Assembly: GCF_030845195.1 (NCBI RefSeq)
Contig: NZ_CP132543.1
Coordinates: 823,501-887,500, forward strand
Origin: Sanyastnella coralliicola
GTDB lineage: Bacteria > Bacteroidota > Bacteroidia > Flavobacteriales_D > Sanyastnellaceae
DNA: 64,000 nt
Direction: 5' to 3'
This document shows, in pieces, positions 47,667-62,330 of this stretch (positions are counted from its first letter, which is position 1; every line of letters begins with the position of its first letter). The position numbers were made by a program, and so were the translations under genes. The notes beneath the pieces were generated by a model, which saw only the letters and a program-made list of their open reading frames with translations, made no database searches and was not told the origin of the DNA.

Positions 47667-47812
47667 TTCAGTCTTAGTGGGCCTGTCTGCTGACTGAATC
47701 TGTTCTGTTTCGAAGAAAATCTCAGCCCTCGCGGGCCTGTCCGCGGACTGAATCCGATCTATTTTAGCAGAAATTCTCAGCCCTCGCGGGCCCGCCCGCC
47801 CCCACCGTCCTA
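47667..47812 (-). repeat. Three-unit 55-bp tandem repeat upstream of the Crp/Fnr gene
   Basis: Units start at about 47667, 47721 and 47776, each containing a CTCAGCCCTCGCGGGCC-type core and a GACTGAAT segment; unit 1 is diverged (TTAGTGGGCC). GC-rich and able to form stem-loops. The repeat extends the open frame of the regulator with tandem IQSADRP peptides, which is a by-product. Repeat and surrounding gap fill 47634-48054, a 421-bp stretch with no supported gene. Confidence 0.7.
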
Positions 47813-48990: not shown

Positions 48991-49419
48991 ATGATCAATG
49001 CAGCCAATCTAAGTCTAGCGAATAGACTTTGCCTCATATTTATGATCTTTTCTATGTTCTCGTGCCACCCAGAAGCGGGCATCGAACCTTCCATTGAAGG
49101 TAAATGGGAAGTAAAGGATTTCTCCATCGAGTCTCAATTTCCTGACGAAATTCGTGAGGCCAAAATCAGAAAGCAAAGCATCGGTGTGCGCTATAATTTT
49201 TGGGAGAACGGTATCTATACCTGCCGCCGACTGATAGACGAGGAACTCATCTTTGGGAAATATGAACTCACTGGAGATCAACTCGAAATGAACATCAATC
49301 AGGGCAACCGTCATCTAAATCAGATCTCCACGATCATCCATTCAGGTGATGATTATGTTTCGTTGGTCACAAGGCTAAACGAATTCACAACTTACACCTA
49401 CCTCCTCAAAAAATACTAA
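48991..49419 (+). CDS. Small lipocalin-like lipoprotein
   Basis: 142 residues. A hydrophobic leader (LCLIFMIFSMFSC) with a Cys suggests a lipoprotein. The mature part has GKWEVKDFSIES and a beta-rich end similar to the lipocalin-like families of Bacteroidota. The stop codon is inside the left copy of the 31-bp inverted repeat. Function unknown. Confidence 0.5.
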   Translation: MINAANLSLANRLCLIFMIFSMFSCHPEAGIEPSIEGKWEVKDFSIESQFPDEIREAKIRKQSIGVRYNFWENGIYTCRRLIDEELIFGKYELTGDQLEMNINQGNRHLNQISTIIHSGDDYVSLVTRLNEFTTYTYLLKKY

Positions 49420-49447
49420 CGCCTATAGCCTAACGCCTATGGCCTAG
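49417..49447 (+). repeat. Left inverted repeat around the YdeI-like gene
   Basis: A 31-bp stretch starting TAACGCCTATAGCCTA. Its reverse complement is at 49974-50004 with 28 of 31 positions identical. It contains the stop codon of the upstream lipoprotein gene. Confidence 0.85.
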
Positions 49448-49453
49448 CAAGAC

Positions 49454-49969
49454 CTACAACCCCGATTGATTCGCCTCCTTAATCTCCTGATGCAACAGCT
49501 TGAAGTCTAACTTCCCTTGCTGCATCTTCAGGTGATTCATCGCAACAATCGCCCTGCGAATTCTAATATCCGAGCTCTTGACGTTCCCAACCCAGTGAAT
49601 GATATTCCGCTGTTTACCTGGAGTCAACTTCATGAAGTAAGCACGTCCTTCTTCATCTTGGGCAAGCATCTCTGTTAGCTCTTCACAGACCGCCATCCCA
49701 AACTCTGACGTATCCTCTTCCAAACTCACTTGAACCACCTGCTCCGCAACCAGTCCGAGCTGCTTCCGAATCTCCTTATTGAGCATGATGTAGTAAATCC
49801 CATTCCCCTTAGATAAAAGGCCACAATGTATGGTGACCTTCCCTTCAATCGTCGCCAATACACGCTTAATATTCTGCTCCTTAAAATGCTGATAGACATC
49901 ATCAGGCACTTCAATATGCCAGCTATAAACGTTGTTGTATTCAGAGAAGACGGGGGAGGAGAAAACCAT
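49454..49969 (-). CDS. DUF1905/YdeI-like (OmpD-associated) protein
   Basis: 171 residues. N-terminal DUF1905 domain (HIEVPDDVYQHF, IHCGLLSKGNGIYYIMLNKEIRKQLGL) and C-terminal YdeI/OmdA helix-rich domain (YFMKLTPGKQRNIIHWVGNVKSSDIRIRR). The function of the family is unclear; links to stress or peptide handling are only suggested. The gene is bracketed by a 31-bp inverted repeat. Confidence 0.75.
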   Translation of the reverse strand: MVFSSPVFSEYNNVYSWHIEVPDDVYQHFKEQNIKRVLATIEGKVTIHCGLLSKGNGIYYIMLNKEIRKQLGLVAEQVVQVSLEEDTSEFGMAVCEELTEMLAQDEEGRAYFMKLTPGKQRNIIHWVGNVKSSDIRIRRAIVAMNHLKMQQGKLDFKLLHQEIKEANQSGL

Positions 49970-49973
49970 ATTT

Positions 49974-50052
49974 CTAGGCTTTAGGCGATAGGCTATAGGC
50001 GTTAGGAAGGAGAAGAGTTAAGACTAAAGCCTAAAGCCTGTAGCCTAAAGCC
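49974..50052 (-). repeat. Right inverted repeat around the YdeI-like gene, plus further AAGCCTAA units
   Basis: The mirror copy occupies 49974-50004. From 50020 further units of the same TAGGC/GCCTA family (AAGCCTAAAGCCTGTAGCC) follow up to the paaD stop. Confidence 0.8.
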
Positions 50053-50054
50053 TC

Positions 50055-50543
50055 CTAAATGCACTTAAAATAATCAAACGGCTCCAAACAATCAGAACAC
50101 TTGTAATGTGCTTTGCAGCTGGTGCTACCGAATTCTGAGACGAGGGTGGTGTTTTTAGAGCCACATTTTGGACAAGCGATCACCTTTGGTTCGGCGAAGA
50201 GTTGTGATTTATCGTGGCTTTTGCCTTCGGGTGGGGCGATGCCGTATTCACGTAATTTCTCGCGTGCTTCGTCGGTAATCCAATCGGTAGTCCATGCTGG
50301 GGAGAGTTGGGAAACGACTTCTGCGTCTTCTCCAAAGGCGCGCTTGAGGGTGGCCTTAACGTTCCTTGAAATAACGTCCATAGCTGGACAGCCGCTGTAG
50401 GTTGGGGTGATGGTAACTACGATGCGGTCATCATTGATATCAACCTTTCTGATGACGCCCATATCAACAACGTTGAGAACGGGAATCTCAGGGTCTTTGA
50501 CCGCGGTCAATAATTCAAGGATGTGTGCTTCGTTTCTTTCCAC
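50055..50543 (-). CDS. paaD: Phenylacetyl-CoA epoxidase subunit PaaD
   Basis: 162 residues, GTG start. DUF59/MIP18-type N-terminal domain (PEIPVLNVVDMGVIRKV, TPTYSGCPAMDVI) and a C-terminal Cys-rich tail with two CxxC pairs (CPKCGS, CSDC). Needed for assembly of the Fe cluster of the ring-1,2-phenylacetyl-CoA epoxidase. Follows paaC by 3 nt. Confidence 0.9.
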   Translation of the reverse strand: MERNEAHILELLTAVKDPEIPVLNVVDMGVIRKVDINDDRIVVTITPTYSGCPAMDVISRNVKATLKRAFGEDAEVVSQLSPAWTTDWITDEAREKLREYGIAPPEGKSHDKSQLFAEPKVIACPKCGSKNTTLVSEFGSTSCKAHYKCSDCLEPFDYFKCI

Positions 50544-55149: not shown

Positions 55150-55226
55150 GCAACGTAGGCGGTAGGCGGTATGCAGTAAGCCGTACTTTGGTTGCTGCCT
55201 ACCGCCTACAGCATACCACCTGCGGT
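55150..55226. repeat. Palindromic TAGGCGGTATGC element, left copy
   Basis: About 75 bp with left arm GTAGGCGGTAGGCGGTATGC and right arm GCTGCCTACCGCCTACAGC, able to form an imperfect hairpin. Related copies at 55440-55511 and 56019-56046. Confidence 0.7.
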
Positions 55227-55228
55227 TG

Positions 55229-55375
55229 TCAGTTGCACTTAGTTATCATGGCCCAAACCAAGAAAACAATGAAGAACGCGAGGGTTAATCCACCGCTTCT
55301 TAGATAATCCTTGAAATTCTCCTTGAGTTCTGGCATATCTGGATCCTCTTTAGTTCTCCAAAAATCTAGCGACAT
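55229..55375 (-). CDS. Candidate small membrane protein, bracketed by palindromic repeats
   Basis: 48 codons from the only in-frame ATG (55375) to the stop at 55229. It has a charged start (MSLDFWRTKEDPDMPELKE) and a C-terminal membrane segment (LTLAFFIVFLVWAMI). The frame continues upstream with a second hydrophobic stretch (FLVITITLITGILII) preceded by AGGAGG but no standard start codon before the repeat at 55440. The true start may have been displaced or destroyed by the repeat. A real gene is likely but unproven. Confidence 0.4.
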   Translation of the reverse strand: MSLDFWRTKEDPDMPELKENFKDYLRSGGLTLAFFIVFLVWAMITKCN

Positions 55376-55439
55376 ACGAATGATCAGAATGCCAGTGATT
55401 AGGGTAATGGTAATGACTAAGAATTGATACCTCCTGCAA

Positions 55440-55511
55440 GATACTGCAGTGTGCTGTATGCGGAAAGCAGTGCCCAGTTTGCTGCCTACTGCCTACAGCA
55501 TACCGCCTACG
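55440..55511. repeat. Palindromic TAGGCGGTATGC element, right copy
   Basis: Second copy, same orientation as the one at 55150, ending with GCCTACTGCCTACAGC. It adjoins and partly covers the 3' end of the lipoprotein gene. Confidence 0.7.
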
Positions 55512-55896
55512 GTAAGGCCTTAGGCCTTACATTCACGATTCTGAACCCCTCAGCCCACACAGACCCTGCACCATCCCAAACCATCGTATCTCCGCTCAGC
55601 GTCACCTTCCAATGGCTATCATCTTCCGGACCAGCATCACTGTCAAGAAACAAGGTCATGGCTTCAGCGTCAAAAGAATATTTCCCACTATTCTCCCCAA
55701 ACGGACGTCCACCACTCGTGAATGTGCTATCTGCATGCATGATCACATAACGTTCATCATACGGGTCGTGCTCAGAGGTAACGTCTTCTCCTTGTTGGAT
55801 GACCTGGTGCATCGACCATTCACCTGTGATGGATGGGGTCGTTTCAGGTTGAGTACAAGCTAATAGGATGAGAGGGATGAACAGAAAAAATCTCAT
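55507..55896 (-). CDS. Small lipocalin-like lipoprotein
   Basis: 129 residues from the ATG at 55896. Lipobox-like LILLAC (Cys13), then a beta-rich GEWSMHQVIQQ and KYSFDAEAMTLFLD pattern as in lipocalin-like DUFs. The last codons (NVRPKALP) are encoded by the TAAGGCCTTA repeat that fills 55512-55530, so the repeat has become part of the gene. A frame extends 39 codons upstream through another repeat; the start at 55896 has the signal peptide. Confidence 0.6.
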   Translation of the reverse strand: MRFFLFIPLILLACTQPETTPSITGEWSMHQVIQQGEDVTSEHDPYDERYVIMHADSTFTSGGRPFGENSGKYSFDAEAMTLFLDSDAGPEDDSHWKVTLSGDTMVWDGAGSVWAEGFRIVNVRPKALP

Positions 55897-58418: not shown

Positions 58419-60134
58419 ATGTTCCAGTACCGTACATTTCTATCTGTGATTTTCTGTGTGTTGTTTTTCGCCTTAACGGCGGAAGCCCAGCACGGTACGC
58501 GCTCTGGATTCCGTTCCCCACTTGACATTCCATTGAATCTTTCAGGGAACTTTGGTGAGTTCCGTTCGAATCACTTTCACACTGGCCTTGACATCAAAAC
58601 ACAAGGTCGTACGGGTTTGCCTGTTTACGCTATCGCGGAAGGGCATATCAGCCGAATTAAGATATCTTCCTATGGGTACGGAACGGTGATCTATGTCGAT
58701 CACCCCAACGGCTACACTTCGGTTTATGCCCACCTCAGTAAGCTGAACGATAAGATTGAAGACTTCCTCCGTGACGCACAGTATGAGCTGGAATCGTGGG
58801 AGGTAGATCTGTACCCTGGTGTTGGACTGATCCCCATCGACTCTTCTGAGGTCATCGCATGGACTGGCAACAGCGGCTCTTCTGGTGGACCTCACCTTCA
58901 TTTCGAGATTCGTGAGACCGAGTCAGAGTTTCCAGTCAATCCCTTGCTCTGGGATTTTCCAGTAGCTGATTCGAGAGCACCGGCCTTGAGAGGTATCCAG
59001 GTGGTTCCGCTTGAGGACTCAAGTCAGGTTATGGGAACGCATCGTTCGCAATTGATTGCTACCAATGGCACTTCTGGTAAGGTCTCGCTAACGCGGAAAG
59101 GCCCCATTCCTGTCTATGGACCAGTCGGAGTCGGGGTGCACACCATTGATCAACTTGATAACAACAGCAACATCTGCGGAATCTTCCGACTCGAAGTCTT
59201 CCTTGACAATGAATTGCTCTTCGAAGAAAAGCTCGAGCAACTCGATTTTGCCACCAACCGCTTCATGAATGCACACATGGATTTCGCCACCATGAAGCAA
59301 GAGAAGAAGAGTATCCACCGAACCTTCCGTTTGCCCTACAACCGTCTGCCTATCTACCGTACGGTGAAGAACAACGGACGAATAGAACTACCGGATAATC
59401 AAATTCACTCAGTTCTAGTGAAGGTCTATGATGTTCACGGTAATACGAGCGAAGTAAGTTTCGATCTTCAACAAGTTGATGAGCCTAACGCTAGCGCGGA
59501 ATCAGGTAGCTTGAAACCATCAGGTGCGCGTAGGTGTGCATTCGATAAGGTCAATACCATTCGCACAGAAGGTTGCAATCTCTTCATCCCAGAAGGCAGA
59601 CTCTATGACGACGCCTACGTGTGGATCAATGAAGTTCGCGGAGGTCCGCTCTCTGTCAAGTCACCTTACTTCGAAGTAGGGAACCGTTTTGAGCCGGTCC
59701 ACGACGAAATGATTCTCAAAATCAACGCTGAAGACGTACCCGATTCCCTTGTGGACAAACTAATGATCCTTCAATACAACCCAGGGAAGAAACGCTACTA
59801 CAACCGCGGCGGCAGCTATAAAATCGGTTGGGTCAACGCTCGCGTAAAAGCCTTCGGCACCTACGTTGTTGGAATGGACACTGTTCCTCCAGTCATCAAA
59901 ACACGCAAAGCCACGCGCAAAGACCTCTCTTTCACCATCACAGATGATCTCTCCGGCATCGACCACTGGGAAGCCCGCGTAGACGGCAAATGGATCCGTA
60001 TGCACTTCGACCACAAAAAAGCCAGACTCTGGTACAAATCAGAAGACGGAATAATTGATGAAGAGTCGAAATACCTCCTGTTGCGTGTGTGGGATGAGAG
60101 GGGGAATGTGGCTGAGACTGAAGTTTCTTTTTAG
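58419..60134 (+). CDS. M23 family metallopeptidase (secreted)
   Basis: 571 residues from the ATG at 58419, which begins the signal peptide (FLSVIFCVLFFALTAEAQ). Peptidase M23 domain (about 40-190): Zn ligands in NHFHTGLDIK and the late HLHFE motif, with GNSGSSGG in between. Then a long beta-rich region (about 200-571) of Ig-like folds. LytM-type enzymes cut peptidoglycan cross-bridges or act as activators. It contains three copies of the 13-bp motif plus the second copy of a 20-bp motif. Confidence 0.85.
   Translation: MFQYRTFLSVIFCVLFFALTAEAQHGTRSGFRSPLDIPLNLSGNFGEFRSNHFHTGLDIKTQGRTGLPVYAIAEGHISRIKISSYGYGTVIYVDHPNGYTSVYAHLSKLNDKIEDFLRDAQYELESWEVDLYPGVGLIPIDSSEVIAWTGNSGSSGGPHLHFEIRETESEFPVNPLLWDFPVADSRAPALRGIQVVPLEDSSQVMGTHRSQLIATNGTSGKVSLTRKGPIPVYGPVGVGVHTIDQLDNNSNICGIFRLEVFLDNELLFEEKLEQLDFATNRFMNAHMDFATMKQEKKSIHRTFRLPYNRLPIYRTVKNNGRIELPDNQIHSVLVKVYDVHGNTSEVSFDLQQVDEPNASAESGSLKPSGARRCAFDKVNTIRTEGCNLFIPEGRLYDDAYVWINEVRGGPLSVKSPYFEVGNRFEPVHDEMILKINAEDVPDSLVDKLMILQYNPGKKRYYNRGGSYKIGWVNARVKAFGTYVVGMDTVPPVIKTRKATRKDLSFTITDDLSGIDHWEARVDGKWIRMHFDHKKARLWYKSEDGIIDEESKYLLLRVWDERGNVAETEVSF
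58466..58485. repeat. 20-bp motif TTTCGCCTTNACGGCGGAAG, copy 2
   Basis: In the signal peptide region of the M23 gene; contains a CGCC/GGCG inverted repeat. Confidence 0.6.
58628..58640 (+). repeat. Dispersed 13-bp motif, T variant
   Basis: CGCTATCGCGGAA in the M23 domain, encoding Ala-Ile-Ala-Glu. Confidence 0.8.
59086..59098 (+). repeat. Dispersed 13-bp motif, A variant
   Basis: CGCTAACGCGGAA, read in the less common frame as Leu-Thr-Arg-Lys in the M23 gene. Confidence 0.8.
59489..59501 (+). repeat. Dispersed 13-bp motif, exact copy
   Basis: CGCTAGCGCGGAA in the beta-rich tail of the M23 protein, encoding Ala-Ser-Ala-Glu. Confidence 0.85.
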
Positions 60135-60232
60135 GCTATAGGCGTTGGGCTTTAGGCGTTAGTCTTTTATTGGCGAAATGGCGAAATGGCGAAAAGGCGA
60201 AAAGGCGAAATGGCAAAATGGCGAAAGGTAAC
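60131..60232 (+). repeat. TAGGC units plus GCGAAATGGCGAAAAGG tandem units
   Basis: TAGGCTATAGGCGTTGGGC-type units to about 60163, then about seven copies of a GCGAAA(A/T)GG 8-10 bp unit, running into the long repeat that starts at 60201. Confidence 0.75.
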
Positions 60233-60417
60233 AAGTCCGTAATTACCGTTGCGAAATGAACGGACGCCGGATGCCGGACGCCGGAGATAGCATGATTAGT
60301 CCGCCTTCGGCGGTTAGCATGTTCAGGTCTGTCCACGGTCCACGGTCTACGATACTGAGTCTTGACCTCGTTAAACAAATTCCCCGTAATTTCCACGAAC
60401 CACGAACCACGAACCAC
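60201..60417 (+). repeat. 217-bp long direct repeat, copy A
   Basis: Nearly identical to 60933-61156, apart from one 7-bp insertion and about six substitutions. Contains in order the GGACGCCGGATGCCGG tandem words, a hairpin CCGCC-TTC-GGCGG, the GTCCACGGTCCACGG words and a CCACGAACCACGAACC tail. It starts 66 nt after the M23 stop and ends just before the small gene at 60429. Confidence 0.9.
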
Positions 60418-60428
60418 GAACCAAAACA

Positions 60429-60920
60429 ATGAAGTTCGACAGGCAAGTCATATTCCGTATTCCTGGTTCCTGCGAAGAAGTTATGTCTACTCTCAGGAAC
60501 AAAATGACCTTTGTGGATAATCTTCCTGAGTTAATGGGAGGGGATTACATTGATCATGACCTGAAAGCTTCGCAGATTGGTGATGGAAGGATTAAATGCA
60601 TGCTCATTCGAGAACTCAATAGTGTCGATGTCATCAAGCCTTTCGGATTTTTGTACTTAGCGGAGCATGAAGGAAATACTCTAATAGCCGCTCGTATTCG
60701 AACTCATTGGGTCTTCAAATTGGTGATTAGTTGCGCAATAGCTTTCTGGAGCTTTTTGATGATATGTTTCCTCGCTGACCTCAAGATCTTAGCCGAATCC
60801 AATTCGATGATCGTTGCTGTGACACTTATCATCCTTCTTTTATTAGGCAAACACTATTACGAGATTAACCTACTCAGACTATCGATAATTAAGACGATAG
60901 GCGAAGATCAGGTAGCTTAG
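60429..60920 (+). CDS. Small two-helix membrane protein, bracketed by long repeats
   Basis: 163 residues. The first 90 residues have a SRPBCC-like beta pattern (FRIPGSCEEVMSTLRNKM, FGFLYLAEHEGNTLIAARI), followed by two hydrophobic segments (LVISCAIAFWSFLMICFLA, MIVAVTLIILLLLG). Family not identified. The gene has no close neighbour in an operon and lies exactly between the two long repeats, so it may have arrived with them. Confidence 0.6.
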   Translation: MKFDRQVIFRIPGSCEEVMSTLRNKMTFVDNLPELMGGDYIDHDLKASQIGDGRIKCMLIRELNSVDVIKPFGFLYLAEHEGNTLIAARIRTHWVFKLVISCAIAFWSFLMICFLADLKILAESNSMIVAVTLIILLLLGKHYYEINLLRLSIIKTIGEDQVA

Positions 60921-60932
60921 TTTCGAGGGCGG

Positions 60933-61156
60933 AAAGGCGAAATGGCAAAATGGCGAAAGGTAACAAGTCCGTAATTACCGTTGTGAAATGAACGGACGCC
61001 GGATGCCGGACGCCGGAGATAGCATGATTAGTCCGCCTTCGGCGGTTAGCATGTTCAGGTCCGTCCACAGTCCACAGTCCACGGTCTACGATACTGAGTC
61101 TTGACCTCGTTAAACGAATTCCCCGTAATTTCCACGAACCACGAACCACGAACCAC
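60933..61156 (+). repeat. 224-bp long direct repeat, copy B
   Basis: Second copy, same orientation. Starts 12 nt after the stop of the small gene and ends 36 nt before the LRR gene's ATG. Confidence 0.9.
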
Positions 61157-61191
61157 ATACCATTTGGTACAACCTTTGCGTTCTCCTTCGC

Positions 61192-62109
61192 ATGGTCATT
61201 CGAAAGCTGCTCTTTTCGCTTCTCTTTTTGTCGAGCACGGTGATGTTCGGACAACGTGATTCAGTGTACACTTCATTGGAGGATGCATTGAAGAACCCGT
61301 TGGAGGTGTATCAACTCGATTTGTCTTATTTCTATGGACTGGATGGGGCGTATAACCCAAGCATTGTTCCTTTGAAACGTTTGAGTGGTGAGATTGGAAA
61401 ACTTGAGAATCTTGAAATTCTGCGTCTTTCGAATAATCGACTGACAGAGCTACCAAAGCAGATCTGCAACTTATCATCGTTAAAAATTTTGGAGCTTGAT
61501 GGCAATCAGTTGAAGCGATTGCCGACTCGTATTGGAGATTTGAAAGCCTTGAAGCGTCTGGATCTGTATTACTGTGGTTTGACAGAATTACCATCGTCGT
61601 TTAATCAGTTGGCTTCGCTTGAAGAACTCGTGCTAACCTACAATCCGGTTCAACTTACCAATGAACTCGAAGGATTAACATCTCTTCACCGACTGGTCAT
61701 GGCGCATTGTCAATTGGAGGAAATTCCTGCGTCATTCAATACCCTCACAGGGTTAAAGGAATGGTCATTGAATGACAACAAACTTATGACCTTACCAAAG
61801 CTGGACAAGCTGACACAACTGGAAGTAATTCATCTTGGAAGCAATCAATTCTCCGCATTTCCAGAAAGTTTGTTGGAGCTTAAGGCATTGGAATACCTGA
61901 ATCTCTCTCGAAATAGGCTAACAGAAATACCTGAGTCGATCAAGGCTTTGCAGCAATTACAAAGCGTCGCCTTCAATCACAATTACGGACTAACAACGGT
62001 CATCGAATCCATCACTTGGTTGCCAAATCTGACCAGTTTTGAAGCATACCATACAGCGATTGTGGAGGAGGAGTTGAGGGCTATTTACGCTTATGTAGGA
62101 AGGCGTTAG
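61192..62109 (+). CDS. Secreted leucine-rich repeat protein
   Basis: 305 residues with signal peptide (LLFSLLFLSSTVMFGQ). From residue 70 about nine LRR units of 23 residues, with the core LxxLxLSxNxLTELP (for example LEILRLSNNRLTELPKQI). A typical short bacterial LRR protein for protein binding at the surface or in the periplasm. Lies between long-repeat copy B and the diverged third copy. Confidence 0.85.
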   Translation: MVIRKLLFSLLFLSSTVMFGQRDSVYTSLEDALKNPLEVYQLDLSYFYGLDGAYNPSIVPLKRLSGEIGKLENLEILRLSNNRLTELPKQICNLSSLKILELDGNQLKRLPTRIGDLKALKRLDLYYCGLTELPSSFNQLASLEELVLTYNPVQLTNELEGLTSLHRLVMAHCQLEEIPASFNTLTGLKEWSLNDNKLMTLPKLDKLTQLEVIHLGSNQFSAFPESLLELKALEYLNLSRNRLTEIPESIKALQQLQSVAFNHNYGLTTVIESITWLPNLTSFEAYHTAIVEEELRAIYAYVGRR

Positions 62110-62330
62110 GCGTTAGTCCTTACAAGGCGAAATGGCGAAAAGGCAAAATGGCTAAATGTACTTAGCCAATGCGTAGCGAGGTGGTTCTAACGGACGCCGG
62201 ACGCCGGATGCCGGACGTCGGAAAAGCATGGTCAGTCTGTCCACAGTCCACGGTCCACGGTCTACGATTCTGAGTACTGCACTCCGTAAACCGAATTCCC
62301 GTGCTTTCCCACGAACCAAGCTCCGTGCTA
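62098..62330 (+). repeat. Diverged third copy of the long repeat, preceded by TAGGC units
   Basis: AGGCGTTAGGCGTTAG at 62098-62118, GCGAAATGGCGAAAAGG from 62127, GGACGCCGG words at about 62192-62222, GTCCACGGTCCACGG at about 62237-62275, and CCACGAACC near 62310. Same order and orientation as copies A and B but with diverged sequence and no CCGCCTTCGGCGG hairpin. Confidence 0.75.

Follow-up and report, generated by a model that had tools for sequence, protein, structure and literature searches.

Inverted repeats around a ydeI-like gene probably belong to a genus-specific population of heptanucleotide arrays found mainly behind stop codons

Heptamer repeats located behind stop codons have been described in Xanthomonas and Nostoc, where the units are GGGAATC and GGGGA(C/T)T (PMC4692102). 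These repeats are the closest known case to the arrays reported here, which represent a variant of that kind. A second group, the TAACTGA heptamer repeats, occurs in Beggiatoaceae, Cyanobacteria and a few Bacteroidetes, and a role in gene rearrangement has been suggested for some of them (PMC4679880). The main suggestion so far for the function of bacterial heptamer repeats has been the formation of G-quadruplexes.

We have examined a locus in which a ydeI-like gene is bracketed by inverted repeats (Table 1). It is located in a stretch of 64,000 nt, referred to here as the window, of a 4.10-Mb source genome (G000). As a preliminary description of the locus had stated, positions 49417-49447 and 49974-50004 are reverse-complementary at 28 of 31 positions, the gaps between arms and gene are 6 nt on the side of the ydeI stop and 4 nt on the side of its start, and the left arm includes the TAA of the lipoprotein gene. 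NCBIfam returned no name for ydeI or its left neighbours and Rfam gave zero matches within the window. When up to three mismatches were allowed, the 16-nt core of the arms was found at 14 sites of the window, compared to 0.07 expected from shuffled sequences, a number well beyond chance. Both arms are period-7 tandem arrays of the form (NNGCCTA)n, that is, a five-base core plus two variable bases. As a consequence, any two arrays of one heptad family will resemble a long repeat. We consider it probable that the two arms belong to a genus-specific set of degenerate heptanucleotide arrays, most of which closely follow a stop codon and are G-rich on the coding strand. A 55-bp repeat is also present in the window, in two imperfect copies (47679-47799) that lie in the 5′ portion of a long ORF whose true start is probably further downstream.

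Table 1. Genes, arrays and predicted hairpin at the ydeI locus (window coordinates).
Feature	Position	Strand	Remarks
Small lipoprotein-like gene	48991..49419	+	Convergent with ydeI; retained in G001
Left arm, period-7 array	49417..49447	-	Follows the ydeI stop at a distance of 6 nt; coding strand of ydeI G-rich here
ydeI-like gene, 171 aa, DUF1905 and OmdA domains	49454..49969	-	Single copy
Right arm, period-7 array	49974..50006	-	Minus strand C-rich; forms the 3′ half of the hairpin behind paaD
Predicted hairpin	49976..50053	-	-37.2 kcal/mol versus -19.7 ± 3.1 for shuffles, z -5.7
paaD post-stop array, 5′ half of hairpin	50020..50053	-	G-rich on the paaD coding strand; directly after the paaD stop
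paaD (FeS_assembly_P and PaaD zinc ribbon)	50055..50543	-	Upstream neighbour of ydeI, same strand

A third array, missed by the preliminary description, lies at 50020-50053, ~15 nt beyond the right arm and in the opposite orientation. This immediate neighbour is the best pairing partner of the right arm. The right arm is thus primarily one half of a local hairpin, and its pairing across 588 bp is secondary. In the most probable reading, the left arm represents the array that ydeI carries behind its own stop, and the right arm supplies the distal half of the hairpin. An intrinsic terminator at the paaD hairpin was considered and rejected, as the strong stem lacks a T-run and the terminator scan gave no match here. 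The hairpin was also ruled out as a general architecture of the arrays, since inverted array pairs inside one intergenic region were not clearly commoner than expected (11% versus 9% by chance, in 824 kb).

Comparison with other genomes placed the third array with paaD. In G001, the closest relative (~90–94% DNA identity at this locus), both neighbours are present and ydeI is absent, with 162 unrelated bases in place of the 611 found in G000, so that the empty site suspected earlier does exist; the gene was not found anywhere else in the G001 genome. Despite the absence of ydeI, G001 keeps the array CTAACGCCTAAAGCCCAACGCC at the paaD stop. G002, a second species, likewise has a period-7 stretch, rich in G, at this position behind the paaD stop, and ydeI is absent there. 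The array, kept in both genomes without ydeI, thus belongs to paaD. The gene behind paaD in G002 (stretch L070) reads, from its motifs, as a C5 DNA cytosine methyltransferase, and thus the content of this junction differs in all three genomes. Judging by these genomes, ydeI is a lineage-variable gene that was either gained in G000 or lost in G001. Genes of this type were found in 15 of 30 relatives, at 16 loci and with 25–47% identity. No array accompanied 15 of these loci, and the 16th, in the array-rich G002, had an array of another heptad ~60 nt away.

G000, G001 and G002 belong to one genus and are all rich in arrays. Database matches to PaaA place the source genome among Flavobacteriales-like Bacteroidota. 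Outside this genus, samples of 12–40 kb per genome from 11 other genera of the family and four of the same order contained one array in all. Heptads vary among the species of the genus, as indicated by the pattern GCCTANNGCCTANNGCCTA, which was counted 110 times in G000, 21 times in G001 and 0 times in G002, and which is present in one other of 61 genomes. The arrays sampled in G002 consisted mostly of other heptads, and the same intergenic site can bear different heptads in G000 and G001.

We then analysed the array population of G000 in ~1.2 Mb out of its 4.1 Mb, taken as stretches of which some had been chosen for holding arrays, with genes called by a simple ORF scorer. In 464 kb, 145 arrays were detected at lag 7 compared to 0 in Markov-shuffled controls; lag 7 dominated and only its double, 14, came near. 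Although ~89% of the DNA in a 624-kb set was coding, 156 of its 162 arrays were intergenic. Of the arrays no more than 25 nt away from a gene end, 63 were located at stops and 9 at starts (824 kb), and convergent junctions were the richest in arrays, also within length classes (824 kb). The arrays fall into about 59 heptad families. The commonest array contains four units, in a size distribution that may be influenced by the threshold for detection. Four GGG runs on a strand, as a G-quadruplex would demand, are present in only 3 of 228 arrays. At such a density of arrays, one would expect a gene to fall between two inverted ones now and then. A threshold-passing array was present within 60 nt on both sides of 5 of 659 genes (824 kb); in one of these five cases the two arrays were similar in inverted and in another in direct orientation. 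Within 1 kb, members of the GCCTA family formed 5 inverted and 12 direct pairs (1.2 Mb).

Several other arrangements were observed. At G000 ~3187870-3188570 (stretch L065, 7872-8560), a local inverted GCCTA pair is followed ~630 bp on, across a gene, by a third array, a second case of a layout similar to that of the ydeI locus. In stretch L060 (4790-5050 and 14180-14660), TCCGGC and GCCTA arrays form tandem repeats of ~112–119 bp with no genes between. Finally, a composite intergenic module occurs three times at window positions 60131-62300, with single genes between the copies, where a 7.2-kb stretch that is missing from G001 begins. The module comprises an array of the 8-mer TGGCGAAA, a CGGACGC array and a GTCCACG array; in the first two copies a CCACGAA array and a core hairpin, AGCATGATTAGTCCGCCTTCGGCGG, are present as well.

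The arrays located after stops follow a strand rule. In 824 kb, G-rich and C-rich arrays on the coding strand were found in a ratio of 46:15 (P = 9e-5). The rule was replicated in 375 kb of new G000 DNA (16:0) and again in G001 (14:1), where the sites are partly orthologous and hence not fully independent. Selection need not be the source of such a bias, as mutation or transcription could also produce it.

How could the bracket around ydeI have been formed? Two consecutive genes on the same strand, each with its own post-stop array, would suffice, ydeI having come to lie between the two arrays through gain here or loss in G001. The arrays themselves may grow by 7-nt replication slippage, and copies may spread among intergenic sites by recombination. 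Behind stops they would persist either because they are harmless there or because they help to mark where the transcript has its 3′ end. A role of the latter type, in which the G-rich RNA or the hairpin would pause RNA polymerase or protect the RNA end, is our leading but tentative inference. This role is now directly testable by RNA end mapping in this genus.

About equally likely, and to be held just as tentatively, is the explanation that the arrays are a neutral or selfish satellite without function, originating from 7-nt slippage and dispersed by recombination, which survives only where it does no harm, behind stops. The ~59 heptad families, the different heptads that G000 and G001 can show at one site, the prevalence of other heptads in G002 and the confinement of the population to one genus are all consistent with this explanation. 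However, simple tolerance leaves unexplained the G-richness of the coding strand after stops, which amounts to 76 G-rich versus 16 C-rich arrays when the three sets are summed.

It is rather improbable that the arrays are sites of gene exchange, at which array homology drives the insertion or replacement of genes, with ydeI as one cargo. In the first three syntenic G000/G001 regions, the gene-sized indels had 20 empty alleles, of which 9 contained an array, compared to 17 of 281 unchanged junctions (P = 6e-6), but these regions had been picked near arrays, which makes selection bias likely, and two further regions fetched as a test gave 1 of 11 versus 18 of 261 (P = 0.56), with a pooled length-matched P of 0.017. 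We therefore do not claim an association between indels and arrays. Two junctions are nonetheless suggestive. In one of them, the interval enclosed by inverted TCCGGC arrays measures 1,352 bp in G000 as against 60 bp in G001. In the other, at window positions 55151-55512 (G000 878651-879012), the ~360 bp that separate two arrays have unrelated sequences in the two genomes, and the insert of the G001 counterpart lies between two identical 28-bp direct arrays.

Very improbable is the reading proposed in the preliminary description, in which ydeI would be carried by a non-autonomous transposable element and the 31-bp arms would be its terminal inverted repeats: inverted arms a few nt from the gene and the empty site in G001 agree with it, but the 588-bp unit exists in one full copy in the 4.10-Mb genome, all other matches being arm arrays alone, at dozens of places without ydeI; the ydeI genes of relatives are not accompanied by arrays; and the right arm pairs best locally, with an array that lies beyond it, so that the inverted repeats are not the outermost ends of the unit. 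Neither a target-site duplication nor a transposase was seen, as had been remarked before; the junctions were inspected against the G001 site, and a short duplication could hide in the repeats. Inverted pairs of heptad arrays can thus mimic terminal inverted repeats. Integron cassettes were also rejected, as no TIGR02249 integrase match exceeded the cut-off and weak matches appeared in 14 of 14 control genomes as well. A test for REP/RAYT elements gave one Y1_Tnp gene, 0.6 Mb away and with a score just over the cut-off.

Among the described systems, the TAACTGA repeats resemble the G000 arrays in being intergenic direct repeats of period 7 that also occur in Bacteroidetes, and differ in their heptad, in their location mostly just before start codons and in that related heptamers are seldom repeated (PMC4679880). 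In the survey of long simple sequence repeats by Mrazek et al. (2007), as it is described in PMC4679880, heptanucleotides were likewise over-represented and a slippage origin was proposed, whereas that description mentions neither a strand nor a post-stop rule. The Xanthomonas and Nostoc heptamers share much more with G000: intergenic arrays, most commonly of four units, some of them in inverted pairs; a G-rich coding strand 0–50 bp from the stop, which the array sometimes overlaps; and rarity between divergent genes (PMC4692102). In contrast, their repeats belong to one heptad family that forms G-quadruplexes, and gene content at their repeat junctions is stabler than in controls (PMC4692102), a stability not seen in G000, where dozens of heptads, mostly lacking GGG tracts, obey the same rule of position and strand. 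The period and the strand are therefore separable from the sequence. A speculative extension, which we regard as unlikely though worth stating, is that post-stop heptad arrays with a G-rich coding strand may be a selected 3′-end mark with separate origins in Xanthomonas, in Nostoc and in this genus of Bacteroidota. Such a mark would depend on the 7-nt period and the strand, and neither a single sequence nor G-quadruplexes would be needed for it.
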